DNA of 64,000 nt from Sphingobium sp. (GTDB lineage Bacteria > Pseudomonadota > Alphaproteobacteria > Sphingomonadales > Sphingomonadaceae): the NCBI GenBank assembly GCA_009360885.1, contig SPEL01000004.1, forward strand, positions 62,001 through 126,000. The letters run 5' to 3'. This document shows positions 14,235-28,805 of the stretch, piece after piece. Below the pieces are notes generated by a model, which was given only the letters and a program-made list of their open reading frames with translations, was not told where the DNA came from and ran no database searches. Numbering within the stretch: position 1 is the stretch's first letter; each line of letters opens with the position of its first letter. The position numbers and the translations under genes are program-made.

Positions 14235-14240
14235 TTACTG
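14083..14240. repeat. Dispersed hairpin repeat, copy 2
   Basis: Matches copy 1 from TTTGAAATACGC onward with about 87% identity over the first 64 bases, then more loosely. Palindrome arms lie at 14169-14194 and 14219-14239. Its right arm contains the TAA stop codon of the isochorismatase-family gene on the minus strand. Confidence 0.68.
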
Positions 14241-14882
14241 GAGCTTAGCCATCTCATCCAGCAAGGCAGGCGTATTCGTTACGCGGCAATAGCCTTTCGT
14301 CAGTTCCAGCGCCCATTCATGCCGTTCCGGCGTATAGGTGGCACAGGCATCTTCGGGCACGACCACCAGAAACCCCTTATCGCACGCATCTCTTACCGCC
14401 GAAATCACGCATTGGTCGGTCAACAACCCGACAATGACGAGGCGCGTAATGCCAAGATTGCGCAGCAGATATTCGATAATCGTCGAATTGAACACGCTCG
14501 ACGTTGTTTTGGGCAGGCGGATTTCGTCTCCTTGCGGCGCGATTTCTTCCAAAACCTGCGCCTCTTTCGATCCGCGAGCGACATTAATACCGCTTACCTT
14601 ATAATCCAGGCTACGATCGCGCCCGTCATCAGTCAGATTTTCAACGGTCGTAAAAATTACTTCCGCGCCCTTTGCCCGAAAAGCATCCTGTAGCGCACGG
14701 ATATTAGGCAGCATCACCTGCTCTATCCGATCCATATAATAGCGTTTTTCATCGGGCAGGCTATCCCGATCATAATCGGCAAGGTCGCCATATCCATAGC
14801 CCGCAACCTCATATTGCACATCCACAACCAGCAAGGCAGTGCTGCCTGCATCCGTAAGCGGAGCATCACGAAGAATTGTCAT
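14235..14882 (-). CDS. Isochorismatase-family cysteine hydrolase
   Basis: A 215-residue cytoplasmic hydrolase of the isochorismatase/nicotinamidase fold. The catalytic triad is visible: Asp in LLVVDVQ near residue 20, Lys in RLPKTTSSVF near 120, and Cys in LLTDQCVISAVRDA near 151. The start at ATG 14882 has GAGG five bases upstream and lies 7 bases after the glutamine-synthetase-like gene. The substrate is unknown; families include amide and imide hydrolases. It is the last gene of the eight-gene operon, and its stop lies within a repeat copy. Confidence 0.88.
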   Translation of the reverse strand: MTILRDAPLTDAGSTALLVVDVQYEVAGYGYGDLADYDRDSLPDEKRYYMDRIEQVMLPNIRALQDAFRAKGAEVIFTTVENLTDDGRDRSLDYKVSGINVARGSKEAQVLEEIAPQGDEIRLPKTTSSVFNSTIIEYLLRNLGITRLVIVGLLTDQCVISAVRDACDKGFLVVVPEDACATYTPERHEWALELTKGYCRVTNTPALLDEMAKLQ

Positions 14883-14889
14883 ATCATCC

Positions 14890-16218
14890 TCAATAAATGG
14901 CAGCATAGCGACGGCAAAGTTCATCAGCGTCCCACGCGGAACATAAATCTGCTTCATGCCGCTTGGCCAGTATCAGGGCTTCAACCAGCGACGCGCCCAG
15001 CGCTTCGCAAAGTAACGCATCCTTTTCCAGCCGATCCAGCGCCTCTGGCAGCGATTGCGGCAGCCTTTCCACCCCGGCCCTACGTAATTCCTCTTCCGGC
15101 AATTCTGATGGATCACTGTTGACGAGAGGAGGCATGCCCGCGTCAGTTCTGATGCCATCAAGCCCCGCCGCGAGCAGCCCGCCCAGCACGAGATAAGGAT
15201 TGGCCGTGGCATCGGCGGCCCTGTATTCCACATTAAACTGACGGGCGATGGAAGCAGGATCGCTGCCGACTACAGGACAGAGACGCAATGTAGCCTCGCG
15301 GTTGCGGTCCCCCATGCAGGTATAGGCCGAACTCCAGCGGTGCGGTTTCAGCCGTTCATAAGAAATAACGGATGACGCCGTCAGCGCGCATAATGCCGAC
15401 ATATGATTAACAATGCCCGCGCAAAAGGCCTGCCCTATTCTGCTCAGCCCCGCCTCTCCGGCAGAATCATATAACAGAGGGCGTCCTTCACCATCCCATA
15501 ATGACAGATGAACGTGAACCCCGCTGCCGACCCCGCCCGCATGGCGAAGCGGAGAGAAAGAGGCATGCCCGCCAGCCCGGTGGGCATAAGCGCGCACCAA
15601 TTCCCGCGATACCACCGCCCTGTCGGCGGATGTGACGCCAAAAGACGGTTTCATCGTCAGTTCAAACTGATTCTCCGCAAATTCTGCCAGCAGCATTTCC
15701 GGTTCCACCCCGGCCTGCTCCAGCAAAGTCATCAGGTTACTGCTAAACGGTTCATGTCGTACTGCGCGCTGATAAGAGAAACCGGGCGTGCCGCCATCCT
15801 CGCCGGGCAACGTCAACCAGAATTCCTGCTCAAAGGAAGCCATGACCCTTATCTTCATCGCGGCCAGCTCTTCGACCATTCTCCGCACAAAGCTACGGGC
15901 GCACAAGCCCATATCCTGTCCCTGCAGATCACTTATGTCACACAGGGCAAAGCGCAGCCTCGGTCCATCGGGCGTCAATGGCACATCTACCAGGGTTGCT
16001 TCGTCCGTCCTTAAACGGCAATCCCCATGCGATCCCCATGGGTTGGGCGATGCAATCGTATCAAATGGCGATATGATCTGGTTGACCGGCACCCAGCCGA
16101 CCCCTGATTTTAACCCTTCATTCGCCAGTGCCCATGCCCCTCGTCCGCGCGTAATTCCGGCCAGATCGGTCACCAGATAATGGGTCAGTATGGAAGAAGG
16201 GGATGACGGATGAGGCAT
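14890..16218 (-). CDS. Glutamine synthetase family ligase (PuuA/GlnA3-like)
   Basis: A 442-residue ATP-dependent ligase related to glutamine synthetase and gamma-glutamylpolyamine synthetase. The C-terminal catalytic domain shows the glutamate-binding ASFEQEFWL near residue 133, the ATP/metal segment GSGVHVHLSLWDGEGRPL near 237, and NREATLRL near 314 with its substrate Arg. An N-terminal beta-grasp part is present (residues 1-95). Lacking the GlnB adenylylation-site context, it is more likely to glutamylate an amine than to assimilate ammonia, but that is inference. The start at 16218 has GGAG upstream. A 153-base gap separates it from the M20 gene. Confidence 0.87.
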   Translation of the reverse strand: MPHPSSPSSILTHYLVTDLAGITRGRGAWALANEGLKSGVGWVPVNQIISPFDTIASPNPWGSHGDCRLRTDEATLVDVPLTPDGPRLRFALCDISDLQGQDMGLCARSFVRRMVEELAAMKIRVMASFEQEFWLTLPGEDGGTPGFSYQRAVRHEPFSSNLMTLLEQAGVEPEMLLAEFAENQFELTMKPSFGVTSADRAVVSRELVRAYAHRAGGHASFSPLRHAGGVGSGVHVHLSLWDGEGRPLLYDSAGEAGLSRIGQAFCAGIVNHMSALCALTASSVISYERLKPHRWSSAYTCMGDRNREATLRLCPVVGSDPASIARQFNVEYRAADATANPYLVLGGLLAAGLDGIRTDAGMPPLVNSDPSELPEEELRRAGVERLPQSLPEALDRLEKDALLCEALGASLVEALILAKRHEADLCSAWDADELCRRYAAIY

Positions 16219-16365
16219 GGAGAAACTCCGGTACGGCAAAGATGGTTTCATATCATACAATACAACCATTATTGGCAATAATGAAATGAAATATACTAAA
16301 AACTAGCTGATGGTCCATATCCTCCGCACCTCAGCATCAGGATAGAGACCACAACACTTCGTTAT

Positions 16366-16381
16366 CTAGGGTCAGGACCTA
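16366..16381. repeat. TAGGGTCAGGACC motif copy
   Basis: CTAGGGTCAGGACCTA; near-identical short sequences occur at 33312, 35121, 39147, 41871, 53758 and 62230. The TGA stop of the M20 gene at 16372-16374 lies inside it. Confidence 0.65.
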
Positions 16382-17637
16382 TGCAATACGGGAGCAGCCT
16401 GCGCCAGTCGGCATAATAGCAGCGCGGAAAGGCGGGACCGTTCAACAAGGCTGGAAACGATGAGATACTCATCTGCGGAATGGATTGAACCGCCCCGCAC
16501 GCCCATGGTGTCAACCACCGGCACACCACAGGCCGCAATATTATTGCCATCGCACACACCGCCAGTGTCCCGCCAGCCTATTTCCTGCCCAAGGCTACGC
16601 CCACACTGCTGCACCAATTCGTACAATGCCTGTGCCCGTGCATCCATCGGCTTAGGCGGACGAGCGAACCCGCCATGTACATGAATGGCAACATCCCTTT
16701 GCCGCGCAACATCCGCTATTATCATATCGAGTGCTGCCTGCGCCTCTTCCTGATCCCGCGGCGTGGCCGGGCGCATATTAACGCGCACGATGGCATGGTC
16801 AGGCACCACATTATTTGGCCCACCACCGTCAATGCGGGCGGGATTGACCGAAAGGCCGGGTCGGACCAGTTCGGTGAGGCGCAGCGTCAAATCCGCCGCA
16901 GCAACGACGGCATTGCGCCCATCTTGCGGGTTACGGCCAGCATGCGCACTACGCCCGGTAATAATGATGGAAAAATTACCGCTTCCCGGCCTTGCCCCCG
17001 CCAGGGTGCCATCGGGAAGTGCGGATGGTTCATAGGTCAATGCTGCATATTTCCCCTGCGCCGCCCGCTTCAGCAAAGCGGCGGACCCGGGCGATGCAAT
17101 TTCTTCATCACTATTCAGAACGACCTGATACCCCAGCCTTTCACACCCTTCATAGCGTTCAAAGGCGCTTAGCGCCGCCAGCATAACCGCGATGCCGCCC
17201 TTCATATCCGCGACACCGGGGCCGTTCAGCACGTCATCATTCAACCAGCGGCAGGATTGAAAATCACTATCCTTTGCAAACACCGTATCCATATGGCCAG
17301 TCAGCAAAATCTGCACAGGGGCTTCGGGACGCACCGTCAACAGCAGGTTGTCGCCATAGGTTTCCGCCTTCTGCGCACCGGATACATCAACCGATGAACC
17401 AATATCAGCAGGCAGCCGCCGCACCTCCCCCGGAAGGAAGGACAATGCATCAGCAAGCATATCCGCCATATGCGAAAGACCGGCAAGGTTGCGTGATCCG
17501 CTGTTAATCGCCGACCACGCAAGCACCCGGTCAAGCATACCAGCTCCCTCGACATGATCCAGCACGGACTGATAGCGCGTCACATCATCCATGCCGGGCA
17601 GATCAGTGCCAGAGAGGAAGGCAGGCTTTTCCCTCAT
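16372..17637 (-). CDS. M20 family metallo-deacylase, candidate succinyl-amino-acid desuccinylase
   Basis: A 421-residue two-zinc M20 enzyme related to CPG2/DapE/ArgE. Metal ligands are intact: LTGHMDTVF (His, Asp) near residue 115, GPGVADMKGG (bridging Asp) near 140, SDEEIASPG (catalytic Glu pair) near 176, and the C-terminal His in SIHSADEY near 386; the dimerisation domain with TGRSAHAGRNPQDGRNA is present. It overlaps astD by ATGA. An AstE is missing, so desuccinylation of the pathway product is a reasonable role (inference). The last residues HRS and the stop are encoded by a repeat motif. Confidence 0.85.
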   Translation of the reverse strand: MREKPAFLSGTDLPGMDDVTRYQSVLDHVEGAGMLDRVLAWSAINSGSRNLAGLSHMADMLADALSFLPGEVRRLPADIGSSVDVSGAQKAETYGDNLLLTVRPEAPVQILLTGHMDTVFAKDSDFQSCRWLNDDVLNGPGVADMKGGIAVMLAALSAFERYEGCERLGYQVVLNSDEEIASPGSAALLKRAAQGKYAALTYEPSALPDGTLAGARPGSGNFSIIITGRSAHAGRNPQDGRNAVVAAADLTLRLTELVRPGLSVNPARIDGGGPNNVVPDHAIVRVNMRPATPRDQEEAQAALDMIIADVARQRDVAIHVHGGFARPPKPMDARAQALYELVQQCGRSLGQEIGWRDTGGVCDGNNIAACGVPVVDTMGVRGGSIHSADEYLIVSSLVERSRLSALLLCRLAQAAPVLHRS

Positions 17638-19043
17638 GGCAGACCCGGTATCGCCAATGCCTCAACCTTTGACGTTTCAAAGCTGGCAGCCGGAAAAGCA
17701 CAATAATCAGCCGCATAATAAGCGCTGGGACGATGATTGCCGGATTCACCCAGCCCGCCAAAAGGCATGGCGGAAGCAGCCCCGGTAGTCGGGCGGTTCC
17801 AATTAATGACACCGGCCCGTACCAGCGCAGAAAACCGTCTCCACAACGCCTCATCCGTAGAAATAAGGCCAGCAGACAGGCCGAATTTCGTGGCATTTGC
17901 CGCATCAATCGCTGCATCAAATCCGGCGACGCGGCGCACCTGGAGAATGGGCGCAAAGATTTCGGTATCAGGGACCTCTACCCCCGTCACATCCAGAATG
18001 ACCGGGGCCATGAATGCCGCTCTGCGATCCGAAAGATCCGCTTCGGCCAGCACTATATGCGCCCCCTTGGCGATCAGCGCCTGCACCGCTTCGCGTGCAT
18101 CATTGGCTGCGCGATCAGAAATCAGCGGCCCCAAAAAGGCGTCCCCGCCTTCATCCCACGCAGCAATCGGCAAACGCCGGGTGAGGGCCACAATGGCATT
18201 CACCATCGCATCGCCCTGCGCCCCTTCCGGCACGATCAGCCGCCGGGCGCAGGAACATCGTTGCCCCGTAGTAATAAAGGAGGAATGCACGACCAGCGAT
18301 GCAATGGCATCATTATCGCCATCCCATGCAACAAGCGGATTATTGCCGCCCAACTCCAGCGCGACAATCACTTCCGGCCGGTCTGCGAAAATCTTGCGAA
18401 AATGCGACCCTGCTCCGGCGGAACCCGTGAACAGCAGTCCATCTATATCGCCCGCGAGCAACGCCGCGCCTGTTTCACGCCCGCCCTGCACAAGGGTCAG
18501 CACATCATCGGGCAATCCAGCCTTTGCCCATGCCCGCACCATATATTCCCCCACAGCCGGGGTTTCTTCTGACGGTTTGAACACCACCACATTGCCTGCC
18601 AGCAACGCCGGGATGATATGACCGTTCGGCAAGTGACCGGGGAAATTATAGGGGCCAAGAACAGCCATCACACCATGCGGGCGATGACGCAGGATGGATT
18701 TACCAAACGGCATATCCTGTTCCTGATAGCCCGCCCGTTCCGCCTGAGCGCGGATCGACACGTCAACCTTGGCGACCATCGAACCGACTTCTCCACGCGC
18801 TTCCCAAAGCAGCTTGCCGGTTTCGCGGGCGATCAGGCTGGCGAATTCTTCCGTGCCTTCCTTCAGCACCTCGGCATAACGGCGGGCAATGGCGATACGA
18901 TATTCCAGCGGAGTTAGCGCCCATGCCGGAAAAGCAGCGCGCGCACGCGTTAATGCATTAGCGCAGGCATCTGCATTGTGCGCGTCCCCTTCCCAGACGA
19001 TAGCGCCGGTTGCCGGATCAATAGACTGGAACATGTTTGTCAT
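17634..19043 (-). CDS. astD: AstD-like N-succinylglutamate-5-semialdehyde dehydrogenase
   Basis: A 469-residue NAD(P)-dependent aldehyde dehydrogenase. Key motifs are GPYNFPGHLPNGHIIPAL near residue 130, FTGSAGAGSHF near 205, the catalytic Glu in ALELGGNNPLVAW near 240 and catalytic Cys in TTGQRCSCARRL near 275. The start at ATG 19043 shares four bases with the astA stop, a better choice than the ATG two codons upstream. In the AST pathway it oxidises the succinylated semialdehyde. Here its substrate may be the glutamate or the aminoadipate semialdehyde homologue. Confidence 0.93.
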   Translation of the reverse strand: MTNMFQSIDPATGAIVWEGDAHNADACANALTRARAAFPAWALTPLEYRIAIARRYAEVLKEGTEEFASLIARETGKLLWEARGEVGSMVAKVDVSIRAQAERAGYQEQDMPFGKSILRHRPHGVMAVLGPYNFPGHLPNGHIIPALLAGNVVVFKPSEETPAVGEYMVRAWAKAGLPDDVLTLVQGGRETGAALLAGDIDGLLFTGSAGAGSHFRKIFADRPEVIVALELGGNNPLVAWDGDNDAIASLVVHSSFITTGQRCSCARRLIVPEGAQGDAMVNAIVALTRRLPIAAWDEGGDAFLGPLISDRAANDAREAVQALIAKGAHIVLAEADLSDRRAAFMAPVILDVTGVEVPDTEIFAPILQVRRVAGFDAAIDAANATKFGLSAGLISTDEALWRRFSALVRAGVINWNRPTTGAASAMPFGGLGESGNHRPSAYYAADYCAFPAASFETSKVEALAIPGLP

Positions 19044-20068
19044 ATGCACACCTGAACTTCTGCGCCTGTATCAACGCCCAATATCGCTGCCCCTGCGGCA
19101 GGCAACACAACTGTTCCACCATCAATCACAACCGGCATTCTGGCCGCCCGAAAGGCCGCAATATATGGCGTCGACACCAATGCCTGCTGCGCCCCAGCCG
19201 GTTGCGCATCCCCTTGCGGCGCATCATCTGCGATACGCACAGAAAAGCGCCTAGTTTCGCGGACCGTGCGAATATCATCGCGGCGGCAGGTCATCGTAGG
19301 CCCTCCGTCGAATATATCGACAAGGCCAGACCGGCTAAAGCCTTCCCGTTCCAGCATAGTGAGCGCAGCCATGCCATGGCGATGCACCTTGCCAATCGCT
19401 TCTCTTGCTGCGGCATCGACCAGTTGCAAATATATGGGATGGCGCGGCGCGAGATCAGGGATAAACTGCCCGTCGGTGGATGTAATCATCCGATCTGCCT
19501 CTTCAAAAGGAAGGCGGAAAAATTTACTGGAAATCCCTTCCCAGAAGGGGCTGTTGTCGGCCTCATCAAACCAGCCGCGCAATTCCGACATGATGCTATC
19601 ACAGAATCGTTCTTTTTCCGCACCGATCAGCATATAGCGCGACCGGGCAAGCAGCGACCCCGCCCCGCTCTGCCGCTTGCCGGGGCGCAGGAACAATGAT
19701 CCAACCTCGGAACAGCTTCCGCATTCATTCACCAGCACCAGCACATTATGGTCAAACCGCGTTTGCGTCGCGGATGAATATTGCGACAATGTCATGACGC
19801 GAAAGGAATAATGGGGACGGCTGATCCCCACCCCGCCTTTTACGCTGGCGACACCTTCTATCTGGCCGGTTTCACTGTTTTCCAGCATCACCGTATACCA
19901 TGCGGCACGGTCATCGACCTGCCCCAGAAAGCTGGCTTCCGACAGTTCCAGCCTGTCGGTCAGTGTCGGGCGATCTTCCGGCAGGCTGGTAAACCCCCTG
20001 CCGGAAAGATAAGCCAGATCCATCAGCGCATCTATATCGGCAAGGCCTGCCGGACGCACGAACAGCAT
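19040..20068 (-). CDS. astA: AstA-like amino-acid N-succinyltransferase
   Basis: A 342-residue protein of the arginine/ornithine N-succinyltransferase family, which transfers succinyl from succinyl-CoA to the alpha-amino group. Family segments: MLFVRPAGLADIDALMDLA, the ASVKGGVGISRPHYSFR part near residue 75, EVGSLFLRPGKR near 121 (CoA site), SKFFRLPFEEADRM near 181, and the C-terminal barrel. Its start overlaps the end of the AstC-like gene by one base (TGATG). Specificity for arginine, ornithine or lysine cannot be read from the sequence. No astB is present. Confidence 0.92.
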   Translation of the reverse strand: MLFVRPAGLADIDALMDLAYLSGRGFTSLPEDRPTLTDRLELSEASFLGQVDDRAAWYTVMLENSETGQIEGVASVKGGVGISRPHYSFRVMTLSQYSSATQTRFDHNVLVLVNECGSCSEVGSLFLRPGKRQSGAGSLLARSRYMLIGAEKERFCDSIMSELRGWFDEADNSPFWEGISSKFFRLPFEEADRMITSTDGQFIPDLAPRHPIYLQLVDAAAREAIGKVHRHGMAALTMLEREGFSRSGLVDIFDGGPTMTCRRDDIRTVRETRRFSVRIADDAPQGDAQPAGAQQALVSTPYIAAFRAARMPVVIDGGTVVLPAAGAAILGVDTGAEVQVCI

Positions 20069-21264
20069 CAGGCGGCCTGTGCGATGGCTTCACGCGTCGC
20101 AGCGAAGCTGGCGTCCAGCCTCCTGATGGCTTCCTCTGCCTCCTGTGCCGTCATGTTGAGCGGAGGAAGCATACGGATACAATTCTCTCCCCCGCCCGCG
20201 ACAAGCAAACCATATTCGCGCGCAGTTGCCATCATTTCGCGGTTATTAGGGATCAGCTGTACGCCAACCAGCAAACCTTTGCCGCGCACATCAACCGCAA
20301 TGTCGGGATAGCGTTCAACCAGCGCCTGCAACCCGGCCCGCAACTGCTCACCAATTGCCAGTACATTGGCGAGCGTTTCGGGCTTCGCAATTTCATCAAA
20401 TGCAGCGATACCAACCGCCATAGCAAGCGGATTGCCACCAAATGTAGACCCATGGGTGCCGAACACCATGCCTTCTGCAACCTTTTCCGTCGCGAGGCAG
20501 GCCCCTACCGGAAAACCACTGCCCAGCGCCTTTGCAACCGCCATAATATCAGGGGCAAGACCATCGAACCACTGATGCGCGAACAGCTTGCCCGTGCGCC
20601 CCATGCCGCTTTGCACTTCATCGAAAATAAGCAGCGTGCCGGTTTCATCACATAGCGCGCGAACCTCCCGCAGCCATTCCTCACTCAGCGCACGAGCACC
20701 GCCTTCCCCCTGCACCGGCTCAACAATGACAGCCGCTGCTGTCGGCTGACGAATAGCGGCGCGGATAGCGTCCATATCATCTATTTTAAGCTGCGTATAA
20801 CCGGGCAGGCGCGGGCCAAAGCCTTCAAGATAGGATGGATTACCCGACGCATTGACCGCAGCATAAGTGCGGCCATGAAACGACCCGGCGAACCCGATAA
20901 TGTCGATCCGTTCCGGCGCGCCATTGGTGTAATGGTACCGACGTGCGGTCTTCAGCGCACATTCAATCGCTTCCGATCCGCTATTGCCGAAGAACACCAC
21001 ATCAGCAAAGCTGTTTGACACCAGCCGATGGGCCAGTTCTTCCTGCTCAGGAATACGGAATATGTTGGAAACATGCCATAGCTTCTTAGCCTGCGCGATC
21101 AGCGCCTCCACCAGCACCGGGTTAGCATGCCCCAATGCATTGGTCGCGATACCAGCCACGCAATCCAAATAGGTCTTTCCATCGCGGGAATGCAGCCAGA
21201 CACCTTCGCCCCGTTCCACTTCCACCGGCGCACGATTATACACCGCCATCAATTCGCTGAGCAT
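20068..21264 (-). CDS. astC: Class III aminotransferase, AstC/ArgD-like
   Basis: A 398-residue PLP enzyme of the acetylornithine/succinylornithine aminotransferase group. Motifs seen are GIATNALGHANP, FGNSGSEAIECALKTAR near residue 95, GSFHGRTYAAV, EPVQGEGG near 184, LIFDEVQSGMGRTG near 215, and the PLP Lys in AVAKALGSGFPVG near 245. It removes the terminal amino group of ornithine-type substrates, often of acylated lysine as well. It sits 3 bases after the flavoprotein gene. I use the symbol for context with astA and astD; argD is an alternative. Confidence 0.88.
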   Translation of the reverse strand: MLSELMAVYNRAPVEVERGEGVWLHSRDGKTYLDCVAGIATNALGHANPVLVEALIAQAKKLWHVSNIFRIPEQEELAHRLVSNSFADVVFFGNSGSEAIECALKTARRYHYTNGAPERIDIIGFAGSFHGRTYAAVNASGNPSYLEGFGPRLPGYTQLKIDDMDAIRAAIRQPTAAAVIVEPVQGEGGARALSEEWLREVRALCDETGTLLIFDEVQSGMGRTGKLFAHQWFDGLAPDIMAVAKALGSGFPVGACLATEKVAEGMVFGTHGSTFGGNPLAMAVGIAAFDEIAKPETLANVLAIGEQLRAGLQALVERYPDIAVDVRGKGLLVGVQLIPNNREMMATAREYGLLVAGGGENCIRMLPPLNMTAQEAEEAIRRLDASFAATREAIAQAA

Positions 21265-21267
21265 GAC

Positions 21268-22692
21268 TTACTCCTCCATCAATCCGAAACTTACCCGGCC
21301 CGACGCCACCGGCGCCATGTTTTTTTCTATTCTTCCTGCCAAAGCCTGAATGGCCTCCGGCACATATTTTCTGTAATAAGCGATGTTACGCGGGCCGATG
21401 CCATGTTCGGCGCTGAAACTACCGCCATAGTCCTGTACCACGGCATCGAAAACAATATGTCTCGCCGCTTCAACAGCCGCGAAGTCTGGCACGCCCTGCG
21501 CTATGTCCCAAACCAGATTATAATGCAGGCCACCATCGCCAATATGGCCAAAATCATGGGGAACAAAACCGGGGGCATCGCGCGAGATACGGTCCGCCAG
21601 ATCATCGCGGAACCGCATCACGTCGCCGCGCCGCATCGCTATGTCACACCCGACGACATACCCCTTTGCGCGCAGTCCTTCGGGAACCGCGTGACGGATG
21701 GCCCACAGCCCGTCATGCTGATCGGTCGCCACATCCAGCACAGGGGCGCCTTCGCCTTCCATCATCGGCCCCAGCACAGCAGCAAGCCGGTCTTCCATCA
21801 TGCTTTCGTCAAACGCCCCGCCCGCAGAAAGCTCAATCAACACCGCATAAGGCGGAATTTCAGCAAAAGGCATGCGCAGCCCCGGCACATGGGCAAAAGC
21901 TGCTATCATCGCAATCTGGCTCATGCCTTCATAAGCGGATAGCCATGCCCCCAGGGCCTTTTCCATATCGAGGAGCAGGGGCAGAGCCTTATGCGGATCG
22001 TTAAGCGCCACAAGGGCTGTCATCCGCGCATCCGGCAGACGCTGCAACGCGACAGTCACACGGGTAATGATGCCCGTTGTTCCGCCCGCACCGACGAGAA
22101 GCTGCTTCAGGTCCAGCCCGACATTATTCTTCCAGAGCGGCCCGCCAAGGCTGAGGCAGGTGCCATCAGCATTAGCGCGCACCATATCCATCGCCATCAG
22201 GTTCGACCGGACATCCCCATATCGCAAAAGGCGCGCTCCGCCGGTATTCGCCGCGACCATGCCACCAATTGTCGGGTCCGCCCCCAGATCAATCGGAAAG
22301 AACAGACCATGCTCTGCCGCCGCCGCATTGAGCACCGATAAACGAACCCCGGCATCAACCGTGGCGGTGCGATTAACGGGGTCAATTTCGATATACCGCG
22401 TCAACCGGTCAAGGCTGAGGAGAACATCTTCACCGCCTTCGCCCGCGACACCCCCAGCGACAAGGCCAGTCGCGCCCCCCTGCGGTACAATACGGACATC
22501 ATGATCCGCTGCCCAGCGAACCAGAGCAGAAATGGCCTGCGCACTGTCCGGGCGCACAACAGCCAACGGAACGCCGCCCGCCGCCCCGCGCCCGTCATGA
22601 CGATATCCCGCCATGTCCTGCTCTTCTGTCAGGACATAGGATTCACCGATAAGGGCACGCAACGAGTGTTGCAGTTCATTCTTCTCAGCCAT
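21268..22692 (-). CDS. FAD-linked oxidase, D-2-hydroxyglutarate dehydrogenase-like
   Basis: A 474-residue flavoprotein of the VAO/PCMH GlcD group. The FAD domain shows VRIVPQGGATGLVAGGV near residue 65, PIDLGADPTIGGMVAANTGG near 132, and AGGTTGIITRV; the substrate domain shows the metal-binding FGHIGDGGLHYN near 387 and SAEHGIG near 427. The family oxidises D-2-hydroxy acids such as D-2-hydroxyglutarate and D-lactate. The neighbouring hglS gene, whose family produces D-2-hydroxyglutarate, strongly supports that substrate. It lies 9 bases after hglS. Confidence 0.88.
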   Translation of the reverse strand: MAEKNELQHSLRALIGESYVLTEEQDMAGYRHDGRGAAGGVPLAVVRPDSAQAISALVRWAADHDVRIVPQGGATGLVAGGVAGEGGEDVLLSLDRLTRYIEIDPVNRTATVDAGVRLSVLNAAAAEHGLFFPIDLGADPTIGGMVAANTGGARLLRYGDVRSNLMAMDMVRANADGTCLSLGGPLWKNNVGLDLKQLLVGAGGTTGIITRVTVALQRLPDARMTALVALNDPHKALPLLLDMEKALGAWLSAYEGMSQIAMIAAFAHVPGLRMPFAEIPPYAVLIELSAGGAFDESMMEDRLAAVLGPMMEGEGAPVLDVATDQHDGLWAIRHAVPEGLRAKGYVVGCDIAMRRGDVMRFRDDLADRISRDAPGFVPHDFGHIGDGGLHYNLVWDIAQGVPDFAAVEAARHIVFDAVVQDYGGSFSAEHGIGPRNIAYYRKYVPEAIQALAGRIEKNMAPVASGRVSFGLMEE

Positions 22693-22701
22693 GGCCTCTC
22701 G

Positions 22702-23730
22702 TCATTTCGTCATATGGAAAATGGCAGTTGCGTTGCCGCTATCGAAAGAAAGGTCCAGTTGGCCAGTATCAGGGTCGCGATCACGGCTGATGAATTCATG
22801 AAATGACCCCGGCACGGCCATAACCTTGTCCGGCCCACCTTCAACGCCGAAAACGCGTTCTACCATCGCGGCGCGATAGGCCGTCTGGCGCACCCTGCCG
22901 TTGCGGGAAAATTCCACCTTATCCTTGATCGGGCGGCCCAACTTCTTTTGTTCTTCCGCCAGCGCGACAACATCGGCCACGCGATCGGTTGCATGATTGA
23001 ACGCATTGCCTTCGGTGGCAATCCATGCCGCTTCGCCAGATGATTTCTTCAGTATTTCATAATCGGCCAGCATGGGCCGGTCATGCTGACGCTCAAACGC
23101 GCTGATGACGACAGGCAGTGCCCGCACCGCTGCATCAAAATCCACCTGCCCATCCTTTGCAAAGCGCGCCAGCACCGCTTTTGTTTCATCATCAAGCGGG
23201 TCTTTCGAAGCCCCGAATACGCGCTGCGCAGCATCAGCAAATTCATCATCGAACTGATCGACATGCAGTTCGCTAACGAAAAATTGCGGGATGGTTTCAG
23301 GAAAATCCTTATGCCGATAGGCGCGCCCCGTCATCTTCAGCGCAGGCAATGGATACAGCGCCGCATCTTCATAGCCCAACGGCTCCAGCAAGCGGCGAAA
23401 CGCCTTTTCCCCGCGCGGCAGGGCACCGGTATCGCCCTGCGGCATCGCAATGCTACGAATGGCACCATGGTCAAACTGTATCCGACCACCCTGCTTTTCA
23501 ACATCTTCGACATAGGCTTTCGCTTCGGGCACGCGGCCCAATATGTCGGTAAAAAGCACGATGTTCAGAGCCGCCGCAAATTGTGCGCGGCCAACCCCAG
23601 GAGCGAGAACGGCATCCTGCGGCATCATCGGTTCCAGCAGATGATTAAACCATTGCACCTGCTTTTCATCACGGACAGATGCAACCAGAGCATGTATGAC
23701 GTTTTCATTCTCATTCATCATGACAACCAA
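22702..23730 (-). CDS. hglS: 2-oxoadipate dioxygenase/decarboxylase-like protein (DUF1338, HglS family)
   Basis: A 342-residue DUF1338 protein. Members characterised in Pseudomonas putida convert 2-oxoadipate with oxygen to D-2-hydroxyglutarate and CO2, an Fe(II)-dependent late step of lysine breakdown. Metal and substrate residues are in place: His88 and Arg92 in QFDHGAIRSIA, a His in EGNAFNHATDRV near residue 245, and Glu in SFHEFISRD near 314. The start may be the first ATG or one of two ATGs a few codons on. It is the first gene of the eight-gene operon and divergent from a LysR gene. Confidence 0.9.
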   Translation of the reverse strand: MVVMMNENENVIHALVASVRDEKQVQWFNHLLEPMMPQDAVLAPGVGRAQFAAALNIVLFTDILGRVPEAKAYVEDVEKQGGRIQFDHGAIRSIAMPQGDTGALPRGEKAFRRLLEPLGYEDAALYPLPALKMTGRAYRHKDFPETIPQFFVSELHVDQFDDEFADAAQRVFGASKDPLDDETKAVLARFAKDGQVDFDAAVRALPVVISAFERQHDRPMLADYEILKKSSGEAAWIATEGNAFNHATDRVADVVALAEEQKKLGRPIKDKVEFSRNGRVRQTAYRAAMVERVFGVEGGPDKVMAVPGSFHEFISRDRDPDTGQLDLSFDSGNATAIFHMTK

Positions 23731-23817
23731 CCATCAAATATTTCCATTTCATTGAATATGCAGGCATATAAAGAATATTCCAAACGAATAACCCGCATCA
23801 ATATATGAGGAAATGGA
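23731..23817. promoter_or_regulatory. Divergent promoter region with candidate LysR operator
   Basis: The 87-base AT-rich gap between hglS and the LysR gene contains the palindrome ATATGCAGGCATAT at 23756-23769 and GAATATTC at 23773-23780. Both fit a LysR-type site in a shared control region. The GAGGAAATGG before the LysR ATG is its ribosome binding site. Promoter boxes are not assigned. Confidence 0.45.
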
Positions 23818-24726
23818 ATGAAGGACACGCGTCAGCTACTCCCCCCCATGGCCGCGCTGAACAGCTTTGCGGCCGCCGTGCGCTATGGCAGCTTTTCCGC
23901 AGCGGGAGAACATATCGGCCTGACGCAAAGCGCAGTCAGCCGCCAGATTGCGGTTCTGGAAGAGTGGTTGCAAAATAGCCTGTTTGATCGCCATGGCCGC
24001 CGGGTTGAATTGAACGAAACGGGCAAAGCCTATGCGGAGCAGATACGCCCGGCACTTGACCAGATACGGTCTGCCACCGAACGGGTCATCAACAAGACCT
24101 CTCGCCGTGATCTTTCCATCGCGACCCTGCCCAGCTTTGGAATGCGCTGGCTGGCCCCGCGCCTGCCCGACCTGACCGCCAGACACCCCGACATGACGGT
24201 CAATTTCGCGGCGCGCTCTTTCCCCTTCAATCTGCGCGACGAAGGATTTGACGCCGCCATTCATTTTGGCCAGCCTGACTGGCCGAATGCGTCGCATCTT
24301 TTCCTGTTTCGGGAGAAAGCGGTAGCCGTCTGCTCCCCCGCATGGCTGGCGAAACATCCTCTGAAATCCCCGCATGATCTGATCGACAAGCCGCTGCTGT
24401 TTCAAAGCTCTCGCCTGACCGCATGGGATCGCTGGTTTGCCCATTGCGGCGTAAAGGATATTCCCCAGCTCCGTGGCCCTATGTTCGAACATTTTCTGAT
24501 GCTGGCCCAAGCCGCCGCCGCAGGAGCCGGAGTAGCCCTTATCCCCCGCTTTCTGATTGATCCGGAAATAGACAATGGCTCTCTTGTAATGCCGTTTGAC
24601 CATTCTCTGGAAAATGAAGATGCTTATTATCTTGTCCGACGTGTGGATTGGGAAACGGATTCTGCCCTCATTCAGTTTAGTCAGTGGCTGCAGGACCAGA
24701 TCGCCGCTCCCTCCCCATCGACATGA
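23818..24726 (+). CDS. LysR-family regulator (GcvA-like)
   Basis: A 302-residue LysR regulator. The winged helix covers residues 8-65 (LNSFAAAVRYGSFSAAGEHIGLTQSAVSRQIAVLEE, here split by its turn) and the effector domain follows from about 95. The MRWLAPRLPDLTARHPD and the GVALIPRFLID segments are typical of the GcvA/AmpR subgroup. Divergent placement suggests that it controls the hglS-ast operon in response to a pathway intermediate. Confidence 0.9.
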   Translation: MKDTRQLLPPMAALNSFAAAVRYGSFSAAGEHIGLTQSAVSRQIAVLEEWLQNSLFDRHGRRVELNETGKAYAEQIRPALDQIRSATERVINKTSRRDLSIATLPSFGMRWLAPRLPDLTARHPDMTVNFAARSFPFNLRDEGFDAAIHFGQPDWPNASHLFLFREKAVAVCSPAWLAKHPLKSPHDLIDKPLLFQSSRLTAWDRWFAHCGVKDIPQLRGPMFEHFLMLAQAAAAGAGVALIPRFLIDPEIDNGSLVMPFDHSLENEDAYYLVRRVDWETDSALIQFSQWLQDQIAAPSPST

Positions 24727-24743: not shown

Positions 24744-26066
24744 TCATGCCGCGCGATCACCCGCCCGAAACCCTGACAAAAACACCAGCGCCGCCATGGC
24801 TATCCCCGTAGCGAAAGACCACAGGGGATTGGCGATGATGCACGCAAGCAGCAACACCAGCGATGATAATAATGCCAGCCCTGATACAATGATACCGCCC
24901 GGCGTCCTGAACGGGCGCTCATGCTCCGGTTCACTGCGGCGCAGCCGGATATGCGCTGCCGCCATAAACACATAGGAAATCATCGCCGCAAACACCATCG
25001 CGACAAAAACGCCTTCGGCTTCACCGGTCATAGCTATAATCATTGCGACCAGCGCGGGGATAAGAATAGCGCGAACAGGAACCTGCCTGCTATCCGTGCG
25101 GGCAAGAGAAGCGGGCAACCAGCCAGATCTGGCCAAGGCGAAAGCCTGCCGCGAAAAGGCATAGATCGCTGAAAACATGCAGGCACCAAGACCAACCAGC
25201 GCGGCTATGCTGACCACCCACATCACCGGCCCACCAATACCGACGGCATGCAATGCGGCGGGCAACGGATCATTCTGGCCAACAAGGCTGCTGACGCCCG
25301 CACCACCCGGCCCCGCAAGCAACAATATAATCGCCAACCCCAACAATATGGCGACCGCCGCGATCATCGCGCGGGGCAATATCTTTCTGGGGTCTTCCAC
25401 CTCCTCTGCCGCCATTGCTATCCCTTCAACGGCGAGGAAAAAGGCAGTCGCAAAGGGCATAGCGGCCCATATACCCAGCCAGCCATAAGGCAATAAAACC
25501 GAACCGCCCGAACCAGCCGCCATATCGAAAAGATTGCGCACGGAAAAATGCGGGGCCATCGCAATCCCAAACACAATGATACCAGCCGCCGCAACACTGG
25601 TTAGCGCGAACACCGTACCGATTGCTTCCTTCGCCCCGCGCAGATGAATGGCCGTCGGTATAACGAAGGTAAGAATGATGATAGCCCAGCCACCCAATCC
25701 AGTCAGGCTCTTGAAATAAGCGTCGATGAAGATCGCAACAACAGATGCCGCCGCGCCATATTCAATCATGATCGCATATCCCGTCAGCCGCCCTGCCAGC
25801 GGCCCGAATGCCCGATGGGCGAACAGCGCCCCTCCGCCGGCATCAGGCAGCATACTGGACAGTTCTGCCAATGTCAGAATAAGCGCTACCCAGATAAGCG
25901 CGGCCAGCAAAACGGCAATTACCATTCCGCCCCAGCCCGCTCTGGCAAGGCCGAAATTCCATGCTGAAAAATCACCGCCGATCACATAGGAAACGCCCAG
26001 CCCCGCCAGCATGAGCCAGCCAGTCCTGCTCCGCCGTAACGCCCCTTGCTCCGGTGCATCCATCAT
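24744..26066 (-). CDS. APC-family amino acid/amine permease
   Basis: A 440-residue inner-membrane transporter with about 12 hydrophobic segments. The N-terminal LGVSYVIGGDFSAWNFGLARAGWGG-like region and the EEVEDPRKILPRAMI segment near residue 227 are typical of the ethanolamine/amino acid branch of the APC superfamily. Its ATG overlaps the stop of the upstream M20 amidohydrolase (ATGATGG), so the two are coupled. It probably imports the product or substrate of the M20 enzymes. It is convergent with the LysR gene. Confidence 0.88.
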   Translation of the reverse strand: MMDAPEQGALRRSRTGWLMLAGLGVSYVIGGDFSAWNFGLARAGWGGMVIAVLLAALIWVALILTLAELSSMLPDAGGGALFAHRAFGPLAGRLTGYAIMIEYGAAASVVAIFIDAYFKSLTGLGGWAIIILTFVIPTAIHLRGAKEAIGTVFALTSVAAAGIIVFGIAMAPHFSVRNLFDMAAGSGGSVLLPYGWLGIWAAMPFATAFFLAVEGIAMAAEEVEDPRKILPRAMIAAVAILLGLAIILLLAGPGGAGVSSLVGQNDPLPAALHAVGIGGPVMWVVSIAALVGLGACMFSAIYAFSRQAFALARSGWLPASLARTDSRQVPVRAILIPALVAMIIAMTGEAEGVFVAMVFAAMISYVFMAAAHIRLRRSEPEHERPFRTPGGIIVSGLALLSSLVLLLACIIANPLWSFATGIAMAALVFLSGFRAGDRAA

Positions 26067-27403
26067 TGGACAGAAGCCGGTTTTGTGCCATCCTGATGCT
26101 GATTGAGATACTCAACCGCCAGACCGGAAAGCGCGCGGACACCATATTTCAGGGCATTTTCATCCACCATGAAAAGCGGAGAATGATTTTTGGGAATAGT
26201 TTCCAGATCGGCGTCAGGTGATGCCACGCCCATATGGAAAAAAACGCCCGGCACCTTTTTCGCGAACCATGCAAAATCTTCCGATCCGGTGCCCAGCGGC
26301 GCCAGCTTTACATTATCGGCACCGAATACCGAACCAAGCGGCCCCTTCGCCCATTCATAGAGCGCCGGATCATTCGCATTAACCGGATAGCCTTTGACCA
26401 GTTCAACTCTGGCCGTAGCACCAACCGTTGCCGCCGCCGCTTCTGCCGTGGATTTGATATAGCTAAAGGCCTCATCGCGCAGCGCCTCGTTATAGGTGCT
26501 TATGGCCCCTTCCATCTTCACTTCGTCCGGGATAATCCCTGCACGTTCACCGCCATGGATGCTGCCGATGGTGAAAACCAACGGATATTCTGTGGTATTG
26601 ATCCGGCGGCTGATAACAGTTTGCAGCGCGGTGACGACCGCCCCCGCCCCCACAATCGGGTCAATACCAGTCCATGGTGAGGAACCGTGGGTTTGCCGCC
26701 CCTGCACCGTGATATTCACCGTATCGTAACTGGCCTGAAGCGGGCCGGGGCGCGCCATCATTTCACCGACATGCAGGCGGCTACTGACATGCAGACCGAA
26801 AATCGCATCGACTGGAGCCATTGTCAGCGCCCCTTCTGCGATCATGCGCGCCGCGCCATCACGATCTTCGCCCCAGCCGGTTTCTTCGGCAGGCTGAAAA
26901 ATCAGGGTAACACTACCCGGCAAATCCGCCTGCATCGACGCGAGAACCTTTGCCACGCCCAGCAAGATGGCGACATGGGCATCATGACCACAACCATGCA
27001 TCACCGGCACTTCTTTGCCTTCCCAGACCCCCATATCGGTCGAAGCGAACGGCAGACCTGTCTGCTCCTTGATGGGCAAGCCATCCATATCGGCCCTCAG
27101 CGCCACGCCCCCCTTACCGGGACGCCCGCCTTTTAACGTCGCCACAACACCCGTATCGGCGACGCCAGTGCGCACAGTATAGCCCAGCTTACGCAATACA
27201 GATGCGACAAGCGCCGATGTCCTGACTTCCTGAAAGGCCAGTTCAGGATGCTGATGTATCTGCCGACGCCATCCTATCACGTCCTTTTCAGCCTTATCAG
27301 CCGCACTATCAATGCGGGCCTGCATGTCTGTCTGGGCGTGAACAGGGGCAATGGAACCTGCCATCGCAATGGCCATGGCCACACAGGCCGATTTGAAATA
27401 CAT
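26063..27403 (-). CDS. Exported M20D amidohydrolase (hippurate/N-acyl amino acid hydrolase)
   Basis: A 446-residue enzyme with a signal peptide (residues 1-24, MYFKSACV..., ending APVHAQ), so it acts in the periplasm. The M20D metal ligands are seen in MHGCGHDAHVAI, FQPAEETGWGED, GLHVSS and, at the end, KNHSPLF. The start at 27403 has GGAG six bases upstream; the ORF extends further 5' but without a signal sequence. It should release amino acids from N-acyl or amide conjugates. It couples to the APC permease downstream. Confidence 0.9.
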   Translation of the reverse strand: MYFKSACVAMAIAMAGSIAPVHAQTDMQARIDSAADKAEKDVIGWRRQIHQHPELAFQEVRTSALVASVLRKLGYTVRTGVADTGVVATLKGGRPGKGGVALRADMDGLPIKEQTGLPFASTDMGVWEGKEVPVMHGCGHDAHVAILLGVAKVLASMQADLPGSVTLIFQPAEETGWGEDRDGAARMIAEGALTMAPVDAIFGLHVSSRLHVGEMMARPGPLQASYDTVNITVQGRQTHGSSPWTGIDPIVGAGAVVTALQTVISRRINTTEYPLVFTIGSIHGGERAGIIPDEVKMEGAISTYNEALRDEAFSYIKSTAEAAAATVGATARVELVKGYPVNANDPALYEWAKGPLGSVFGADNVKLAPLGTGSEDFAWFAKKVPGVFFHMGVASPDADLETIPKNHSPLFMVDENALKYGVRALSGLAVEYLNQHQDGTKPASVQ

Positions 27404-27492
27404 GCAATTCTCCACCTGATAACTACACCCGGAATCCGGCGCCGAAATCCGCCCCAGAAGCCGTGACCAGAGCAACGCCCGGCCCATTATCC

Positions 27493-28695
27493 TCATGCTG
27501 CCGGGGCAAGAAACCGCTCAGCAAGGGACACCCAATAGCGAATTCCAACCGGAATCACCGCATCGTTGAAATCATAATGAGGGTTATGTAGCTGACATGG
27601 CATAGCTGTGCCTTCCTGCGCGGTTCCCAGCAAGATGTAGCACCCCGGAACCTCACGCAACATGAACGCGAAATCTTCTGCCGCCATGGCAGGCTGCATG
27701 TCATCGACAACCCCATTATCCCCGGCAATGGTGCGTGCCACCTCCGCCGCGAAACGAGTTGCCTGCCCGTCATTTTGAACAACAGGATAGCCTCTTTCGA
27801 AACGATAATCATAGCTCGCGCCAACTGCCTCGGCACGATAGCGAACGATCTGTTCCAGACCTTTTTCAAAGGCATCCCGCACCGCATCATTGAGGGTATA
27901 GAGTGTCCCGCGAACCACGGCTTCGTCCGGCGTCACATGCACGCTCTGCCGGTCCTTCGGATTGCCGCACTGAAACTGCGTGATCGACAAGATGACCGGT
28001 TCCGCCGGATTAAGATAACGGGCTTTATACGCATGCATTTCCTGCACGATATTCGCCGCCGTCAATAAAGGATCGGCCACACCAAATTGCGCCGCCGGGT
28101 GAGAAAAGCAGCTTTTCACCCGAAATTCGAACGTATCAATGGATGCAAGCATCGGGCCGGGCCGCACCATGAAATGCCCTTCGGGAATATTCGGAAAATT
28201 ATGAAGCCCAAATATGGCGTCCACCGGAAATTGCTCAAACAGACCATCCTGTATCATGGCATGGCCACCACAATGCTCATCCCCGGTTTCTTCAGCCGGT
28301 TGGAAAATGAAATGAACCTTGCCGTCGAACTCGCCTTTCTCGGCAAGATAGCGCGCCGCACCCAGCAACATAGCGCTATGCCCGTCATGACCACAGGCAT
28401 GCATCTTTCCGTCTATCCGTGAACGATAATCAACGTCATTTTCTTCCTGAATGAACAGCGCGTCCATATCCGCCCGCAGGCCAATGGCCTTCTCTCCCAC
28501 GCCGCGTTTCAATGTACCGACGACACCGGTTCCGCCAAGGCCACGATGTACTTCCAGCCCAAATTCCAGCAGCTTCGCTGCGATAAAATCCGCCGTTGCG
28601 GTTTCTTCGAAAGCGGTTTCAGGATGGGCATGAATATGACGACGCCACTGCCGCGCATCATCAGATATACCATTAATCACCGTCATATCGTTCAT
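27493..28695 (-). CDS. Cytoplasmic M20D amidohydrolase
   Basis: A 400-residue paralogue of the downstream M20D gene without a signal peptide. Ligand motifs are MHACGHDGHSAML, FQPAEETGDEHCGG, FGLHNFPN, and the C-terminal NPHYDFND. The ATG at 28695 is preceded by GAGG at proper spacing. Hydrolysis of N-acylated amino acids, indole amides or hippurate-like substrates is the family's range; specificity is not evident. Together with the exported copy it suggests use of the same conjugate on both sides of the membrane. Confidence 0.9.
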   Translation of the reverse strand: MNDMTVINGISDDARQWRRHIHAHPETAFEETATADFIAAKLLEFGLEVHRGLGGTGVVGTLKRGVGEKAIGLRADMDALFIQEENDVDYRSRIDGKMHACGHDGHSAMLLGAARYLAEKGEFDGKVHFIFQPAEETGDEHCGGHAMIQDGLFEQFPVDAIFGLHNFPNIPEGHFMVRPGPMLASIDTFEFRVKSCFSHPAAQFGVADPLLTAANIVQEMHAYKARYLNPAEPVILSITQFQCGNPKDRQSVHVTPDEAVVRGTLYTLNDAVRDAFEKGLEQIVRYRAEAVGASYDYRFERGYPVVQNDGQATRFAAEVARTIAGDNGVVDDMQPAMAAEDFAFMLREVPGCYILLGTAQEGTAMPCQLHNPHYDFNDAVIPVGIRYWVSLAERFLAPAA

Positions 28696-28757
28696 GGTCA
28701 TTCCTCGCGTTGCCCGGCGCATTGTCAGGCCAGCCCCCTTGATAGTACAAGCTGAGA

Positions 28758-28795
28758 TGAAAAAGCCGCCCATCGTCGAACGGGCGGCTTTTGTA
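28758..28795 (-). terminator. Rho-independent terminator after TonB receptor gene
   Basis: A perfect hairpin with arms AAAAGCCGCCC and GGGCGGCTTTT around a 10-base loop, followed on the minus strand by CTTTTTC. It lies just past the receptor gene ending at 28806 and before the M20D start at 28695, so the M20D genes need readthrough or their own promoter. Confidence 0.85.
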
Positions 28796-28805
28796 CCTTA
28801 TCGGA

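Follow-up and report, generated by a model that had tools for sequence, protein, structure and literature searches.

Gene content of the locus

A 64,000-nucleotide stretch of the Sphingobium sp. contig SPEL01000004.1 (positions 62,001 to 126,000; called the window below) carries an operon in which genes of the arginine succinyltransferase (AST) type stand together with a gene for HglS, a combination that is proposed below to serve lysine breakdown. Read from position 23730 downward, the genes follow in this order:

22702..23730, minus strand: short-form HglS (2-oxoadipate dioxygenase/decarboxylase), PF07063; TTG start, with an ATG 9 bases on
21268..22692, minus strand: FAD-linked dehydrogenase, likely a D-2-hydroxyglutarate dehydrogenase; FAD_binding_4 and FAD-oxidase_C domains
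20068..21264, minus strand: AstC/ArgD-type aminotransferase, dedicated catabolic copy; TIGR00707
19040..20068, minus strand: AstA-family N-succinyltransferase of a separate 24-row clade, with lysine as the proposed substrate; PF04958
17634..19049, minus strand: AstD, proposed N2-succinyl-2-aminoadipate semialdehyde dehydrogenase; TIGR03240, co-occurrence with HglS
16372..17637, minus strand: M20 deacylase, proposed desuccinylase; NF005602

The successive junctions are a gap of 9 bases, a gap of 3 and overlaps of 1, 10 and 4. The families that the initial annotation had named for these six genes were upheld by the family profile scores given below. The genome assembly comprises 2.93 Mb and is 79.6% complete, which limits statements on absence from this genome.

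HglS passed the profile PF07063 (85.2 bits, cut-off 25), a family bearing the name 2-oxoadipate dioxygenase/decarboxylase. Two forms of HglS lie far apart on this profile, a short form with 75-104 bits and a long form with 471-538 bits. The window protein has kept the His-His-Glu metal triad and the 2-oxoadipate-binding arginine, as judged by motif and by an alignment composed of short forms and sphingomonad long forms, not of P. putida HglS. Its residues H88, R92, H246 and E312 were invariant across an alignment of seven short forms, and the metal-triad and arginine motifs were present in all 132 HglS copies inspected (107 short, 25 long; some copies counted twice). According to the passages of PMC7286885 that were consulted, the metal ligands of HglS are His70, His226 and Glu294, Arg74 holds the far carboxylate, and among seven 2-oxoacids the enzyme was active on 2-oxoadipate only. 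The best match of the window protein in the PDB was the uncharacterised 3iuz (E 3e-92); 6w1k, annotated as 'Hydroxyglutarate synthase', was matched with E 2e-5. For the FAD-linked enzyme the top match was 3pm9, a 'putative oxidoreductase' (E 4e-56), and the best characterised one was the D-2-hydroxyglutarate dehydrogenase 6lpn (E 4e-48), a similarity that makes the same function likely for the window protein.

The aminotransferase scored 431 with TIGR00707 (AstC/ArgD, cut-off 410) and 379 with the AstC model TIGR03246 (cut-off 610). ArgD-type enzymes take N-succinyl-diaminopimelate intermediates. An identification with the biosynthetic ArgD was rejected, because another ArgD-like gene, 51% identical, is located elsewhere in the genome directly before an open reading frame (ORF) resembling ornithine carbamoyltransferase (named from reading its translation). 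AstD reached 659 bits with TIGR03240 (cut-off 579).

The M20 protein scored 574 with NF005602 (cut-off 357), and its best PDB match was carboxypeptidase G2 (E 1e-31). An M20 gene stood beside AstA and AstB in all six HglS-free canonical loci that were read at length (L054, L055, L057, L058, L181, L182; L- and G-numbers denote loci and genomes), and in one organism (L070 and L168) it directly followed HglS. AstE (PF04952) was found in none of 99 genomes of the order, including that of the window, with a positive E. coli control; the M20 enzyme would thus be the natural desuccinylase.

The window AstA belongs to a separate clade

The window AstA, the single occurrence in its own assembly, passed PF04958 (366 bits, cut-off 29.4) and exceeded the cut-off of the AstA/AOST subfamily model TIGR03243 (358, cut-off 284), and its score with the arginine AstA equivalog TIGR03244 was 288 vs a cut-off of 391. 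A tree was built from 72 rows (71 sphingomonad sequences and E. coli), which were picked around HglS loci and top AstA matches and are not a random sample. The window protein fell into a 24-row clade with support 100/99; long branches in the tree were flagged by the tree program. HglS was located within 10 kb in 23 of the 24 rows, and in the exception (L052, genome G343) a long HglS lies about 133 kb off on the same contig. AstB was within 6 kb of one row (L075), where it stands by a second, canonical AstA. Among the HglS-free rows of the tree, 26 of 28 had AstB within 6 kb. The link to HglS, mapped on this tree as a label, requires a minimum of four changes. Forty-two AstA positions (e.g. window positions 28, 86, 103 and 249) are candidates for specificity residues; they distinguish the 24 rows of the clade from 26 canonical ones at a level of 80% in either group.

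Of 396 Sphingomonadales genomes, a set not picked by HglS, 351 had an AstA match of some sort. All seven genomes with an AstA at least 58% identical to that of the window also had HglS (hypergeometric 5e-8; kinship ignored, as in all genome and locus counts). HglS was present in an eighth genome, G183, too, which belongs to the clade by the tree alone and on a long branch. Three genomes with a window-type AstA of their own (G371, G328, G179) hold a canonical M20-AstA-AstB locus elsewhere. No AstA relative was found in viral contigs.

The initial annotation had called astB missing and had suggested a search of the genome for astB and astE. The search was run and neither AstB nor AstE was found in the 79.6% complete assembly. 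From the lineage AstB is not absent, as relatives carry it either elsewhere or in the same operon.

Linkage of HglS to ast genes

HglS was present in 39 of the 396 genomes. When all 39 neighbourhoods were examined (that of G273 was scored by hand), 26 had HglS no more than 8 kb from AstA, or from AstC or AstD at 60% identity or above, and 21 had AstA itself at such a distance. Linkage was seen with both HglS forms, in 16 of 21 cases for the short and in 10 of 18 for the long form. In two loci (L049, L050) a long HglS stands beside an AstC-AstA-AstD cluster whose relatives carry the short form, and L157 reads AstC, AstD, canonical AstA, long HglS. The relatives' loci had been collected with short HglS as the query, and 80 of the 138 relatives confirmed were retained; counts over this collection are therefore not frequencies.

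The 13 HglS genes without ast linkage are heterogeneous. Three (G004, G018, G076) are of the piperideine-6-carboxylate type (see below). In four Sphingobium genomes (G188, G223, G248, G338) a PurU-like gene follows within about 115 bases, and the upstream Sel1/SPOR gene is the same as in a LysR-HglS-AstD-PurU layout; because of these shared flanks they look like that layout minus LysR and AstD. One (G269) has the arrangement HglS-M20, and the remaining five are those of G211, G210, G250, G309 and G343. A PurU-like gene with ACT and formyltransferase domains was also seen directly after short HglS at L096:9980-11992 and L100:10001-11958, and once after long HglS, at L158:9701-12363. The AstD of the cluster in L014 is directly followed, at L014:13572-15185, by a gene for a TIR-domain protein that gave a Thoeris ThsB-like match.

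AstD and the place of piperideine-6-carboxylate dehydrogenase

An AstD at least 63% identical to that of the window was found in 27 of the 396 genomes, the 63% line having been set after the gap below it was seen (next best 59%). HglS was present in 24 of these 27 vs 15 of the 369 others (Fisher p 4e-25, kinship likewise ignored). A 48-50% AstD relative about 8 kb downstream in Sphingobium was set aside, its neighbours being unrelated genes.

Outside the window's family, neither AstA nor AstC or AstD at 60% was found in 18 HglS loci. In 11 of them a relative of piperideine-6-carboxylate dehydrogenase (at least 60% identical) was located within 6 kb of HglS: in 8 of 15 loci from a scan of the class, where L153 (short contig, HglS match not reproduced) was scored as a miss, and in all three of the family designated f5. 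The cut-off of the dehydrogenase model NF050084 was exceeded by four sampled genes, three from the 11 loci and one from Caulobacter segnis (L124). At genome level, five of the 39 HglS genomes had a dehydrogenase over this cut-off, namely the three of f5, where it lies near HglS, and two of the 36 from the window's family, leaving 34 of the 36 without one. The window's own, incomplete assembly gave no match to NF050084 at E 1e-150. Taken together, the AstD/HglS co-occurrence and the 11 dehydrogenase loci suggest that the acylated enzyme set occupies the place that the free-semialdehyde enzyme has elsewhere.

Regulator and putative operator

Two further features lie upstream of HglS:

23818..24726, plus strand: LysR-type regulator, divergent; ORF call
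23781..23807, minus strand: putative LysR operator, a dyad CATN(6)ATG plus a T-rich half; matrix score 23.4, also found by pattern

A relative of the LysR gene was located no more than 8 kb from short HglS in 54 of the 75 named loci that extend 6 kb or further downstream. The intergenic region between LysR and HglS contains a conserved site with the consensus CATCAACAGATGA, followed some seven bases on by CCATTTT, and the window copy was the top matrix site of the 64 kb (23.4; the copy was in the training set). Sites were also found before AstC in L049 (22.9), L050 (21.1) and L157 (33.0) and before HglS in L075 (26.9). As the matrix was trained on LysR/HglS intergenic regions, a few wrong picks included, only those in L157, L075 and L050 are independent. 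At a score of 10 or above no site was detected in the canonical loci L054, L055, L058, L181 and L182, and L057 had two weak ones. A degenerate pattern, applied to look for further members of the LysR regulon, gave 15 matches in eight genomes vs 2 for a reversed control pattern; it recovered the known HglS/AstC site in five (G000, G263, G312, G249, G183) but not in G371, G334 and G262, and ten matches were elsewhere. The divergent LysR protein is probably the regulator of the operon.

At L049:11983-12930 and L050:12720-13667, where the short HglS is replaced by the long one, a further LysR gene diverges from it; this gene shares 37% identity with the LysR gene of the window.

Proposed pathway and alternatives

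In the pathway envisaged, AstA would transfer the succinyl group of succinyl-CoA onto the alpha-amine of L-lysine, AstC would remove the epsilon-amine, AstD would oxidise the resulting N2-succinyl-2-aminoadipate semialdehyde, and the M20 enzyme would release succinate and 2-aminoadipate. A further aminotransferase would convert 2-aminoadipate to 2-oxoadipate, from which HglS and O2 would form D-2-hydroxyglutarate, to be oxidised to 2-oxoglutarate by the FAD enzyme. The succinyl cap would stop the semialdehyde from cyclising to piperideine-6-carboxylate. All substrates in this scheme, above all lysine for AstA, are assigned from sequence.

Such a succinylated route of lysine breakdown was the reading of the initial annotation, and it gains support from the repeated linkage of HglS to AstA, AstC and AstD, from the separate AstA clade and from the finding that the AstD slot is taken elsewhere by piperideine-6-carboxylate dehydrogenase. 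On these grounds we consider it quite probable that the locus is a dedicated lysine catabolic operon, applying the chemistry of the AST pathway to a substrate one carbon longer. For the group as a whole it also seems probable, if somewhat less firmly so, that sphingomonads have evolved a separate lysine degradation via N2-succinylated intermediates with a lysine-specialised AstA paralog, and that in other members a shared Ast set handles both arginine and lysine, with AstB as the sign of the arginine branch and HglS as that of the lysine branch.

Several observations weigh against this interpretation. AstB was also present in 12 of the 21 HglS loci with AstA, which implies dual arginine and lysine use in these loci, and 13 of the 39 HglS genes are unlinked to ast genes (see above). 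No operator scoring 10 or more was seen in the dual loci L012, L017, L128, L132 and L165 (weak in L016 and L163), so that the dual operons seem to be otherwise regulated. Three genomes (G290, G146, G156) have a close AstD without HglS. In L063, L064, L066 and L067, HglS, GlcD-like, AstC and AstD genes are joined by a piperideine-6-carboxylate dehydrogenase-like gene with no AstA in the cluster (about 10001-17000 in L063), and in L138 a relative of this dehydrogenase stands beside HglS. No 2-aminoadipate transaminase was found and the operon contains no alpha-aminotransferase; among the HglS loci from other alphaproteobacteria, six have an alpha-aminotransferase within 6 kb. The disregard of kinship in the genome and locus counts is to be reckoned on the same side.

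Arginine and ornithine are the substrates with which the families of AstA, AstC and AstD are associated, and the operon could be an ornithine (or arginine) succinyltransferase pathway lacking AstB, with HglS and the dehydrogenase linked to it for an unrelated reason. The 12 loci combining AstB with HglS and AstA fit this explanation. We regard it nevertheless as very unlikely, because the HglS substrate 2-oxoadipate (passages of PMC7286885) is not among the intermediates of that pathway, short and long HglS are both ast-linked, and the window AstA belongs to a separate clade and scores under the equivalog cut-off. The same chemistry might instead start from another compound giving 2-aminoadipate, such as acylated lysine or, where AstB is present, homoarginine, or it might use an acyl group other than succinyl. 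Neither acceptor nor donor of AstA can be read from sequence, and operons with AstB plus HglS do exist; but lysine is the common compound requiring exactly these steps, AstB is absent from almost every cluster that holds an AstA of the window's clade, and to our knowledge succinyl-CoA is the sole donor known for the AstA family, which makes this variant unlikely. Finally, HglS and the dehydrogenase might complete a conventional lysine route encoded elsewhere, while the Ast genes are devoted to a different amino acid within the same regulon. The unlinked HglS genes would suit such an arrangement, yet the 34 HglS genomes of the window's family without piperideine-6-carboxylate dehydrogenase over the cut-off speak against it, the search having covered this enzyme and not saccharopine-type or other sources of 2-aminoadipate; we consider it highly improbable.

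Accessory and neighbouring genes

Beyond the M20 gene, two accessory genes that are not part of the core follow:

14890..16278, minus strand: glutamine-synthetase-like ligase; Gln-synt_C, first TTG start
14235..14957, minus strand: isochorismatase-fold hydrolase; PF00857, weak PDB matches only

The ligase ORF starts at least 93 bases past the M20 stop, and the hydrolase ORF overlaps the end of the ligase. With the gamma-glutamylputrescine synthetase model the ligase stayed below the cut-off, and its best PDB match was 4hpp. The initial annotation had described an operon of eight genes; for six of them the gaps and overlaps are as claimed. In three relatives (L059, L060, L061) the ligase and hydrolase adjoin M20 on the opposite strand, and because of this inversion the eight-gene operon was rejected in favour of a six-gene operon plus a separate two-gene unit. 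Beside the hydrolase and ligase of L059 (17348-20981, minus strand) two more genes were observed, one for an RpiR-type regulator that contains a SIS domain, the other resembling N-formylglutamate amidohydrolase; this neighbourhood is perhaps a separate gamma-glutamyl pathway.

Upstream of LysR, at 24744-31139 on the minus strand of the window, ORFs resembling an APC-type permease, two M20-type amidohydrolases and a TonB receptor (named from reading the sequences) were noted; no close relatives of them were seen at the other HglS loci compared.

Relation to known pathways

The operon resembles the AST pathway (astCADBE of E. coli) in having AstA, AstC and AstD in one operon and in the proposed sequence of succinyl capping, transamination, oxidation and desuccinylation. 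In contrast to that pathway, AstB was not found in the window's 79.6% complete genome assembly or in the vicinity of 23 of the 24 AstA-clade rows, M20 stands in the place of AstE, HglS and a D-2-hydroxyglutarate dehydrogenase-like enzyme are added, and AstA falls short of the arginine equivalog score. N-acylated diamino acids, ArgD-type aminotransferases and M20 deacylases, as in the window operon, are shared with the acylated diaminopimelate and LysW-type routes of lysine biosynthesis, which run in the biosynthetic direction, however, and have no AstA, AstD or HglS. HglS and the step to 2-oxoglutarate are in common with the lysine routes via 2-oxoadipate in P. putida (D-lysine) and plants (PMC7286885), whose 2-aminoadipate arises from unacylated intermediates. 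Other alphaproteobacteria combine HglS with piperideine-6-carboxylate dehydrogenase, whereas the window combines it with AstC, AstA, AstD and M20.

In keeping with the initial annotation, which knew of no established pathway of this kind, no succinylated lysine pathway was described in the titles and opening parts of abstracts searched, a scope that included passages of the GapMind paper (PMC9007349) and of a Phaeobacter lysine paper (PMC5653290) and lay outside most subscription papers. The operon appears to vary a type of pathway that is already known, and a lysine route of its form appears to be undescribed in the literature searched.

If the proposal is correct, one more route would be added to the known ways of lysine breakdown, and it would explain from where the HglS of sphingomonads receives its substrate when piperideine-6-carboxylate dehydrogenase is lacking. 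The enzymes of the arginine AST pathway would then be a reusable module, and AstA and AstD genes located near HglS and without AstB would probably be mis-named as genes of arginine catabolism. The two AstA clades would offer a ready set for finding the determinants of the choice between arginine and lysine.

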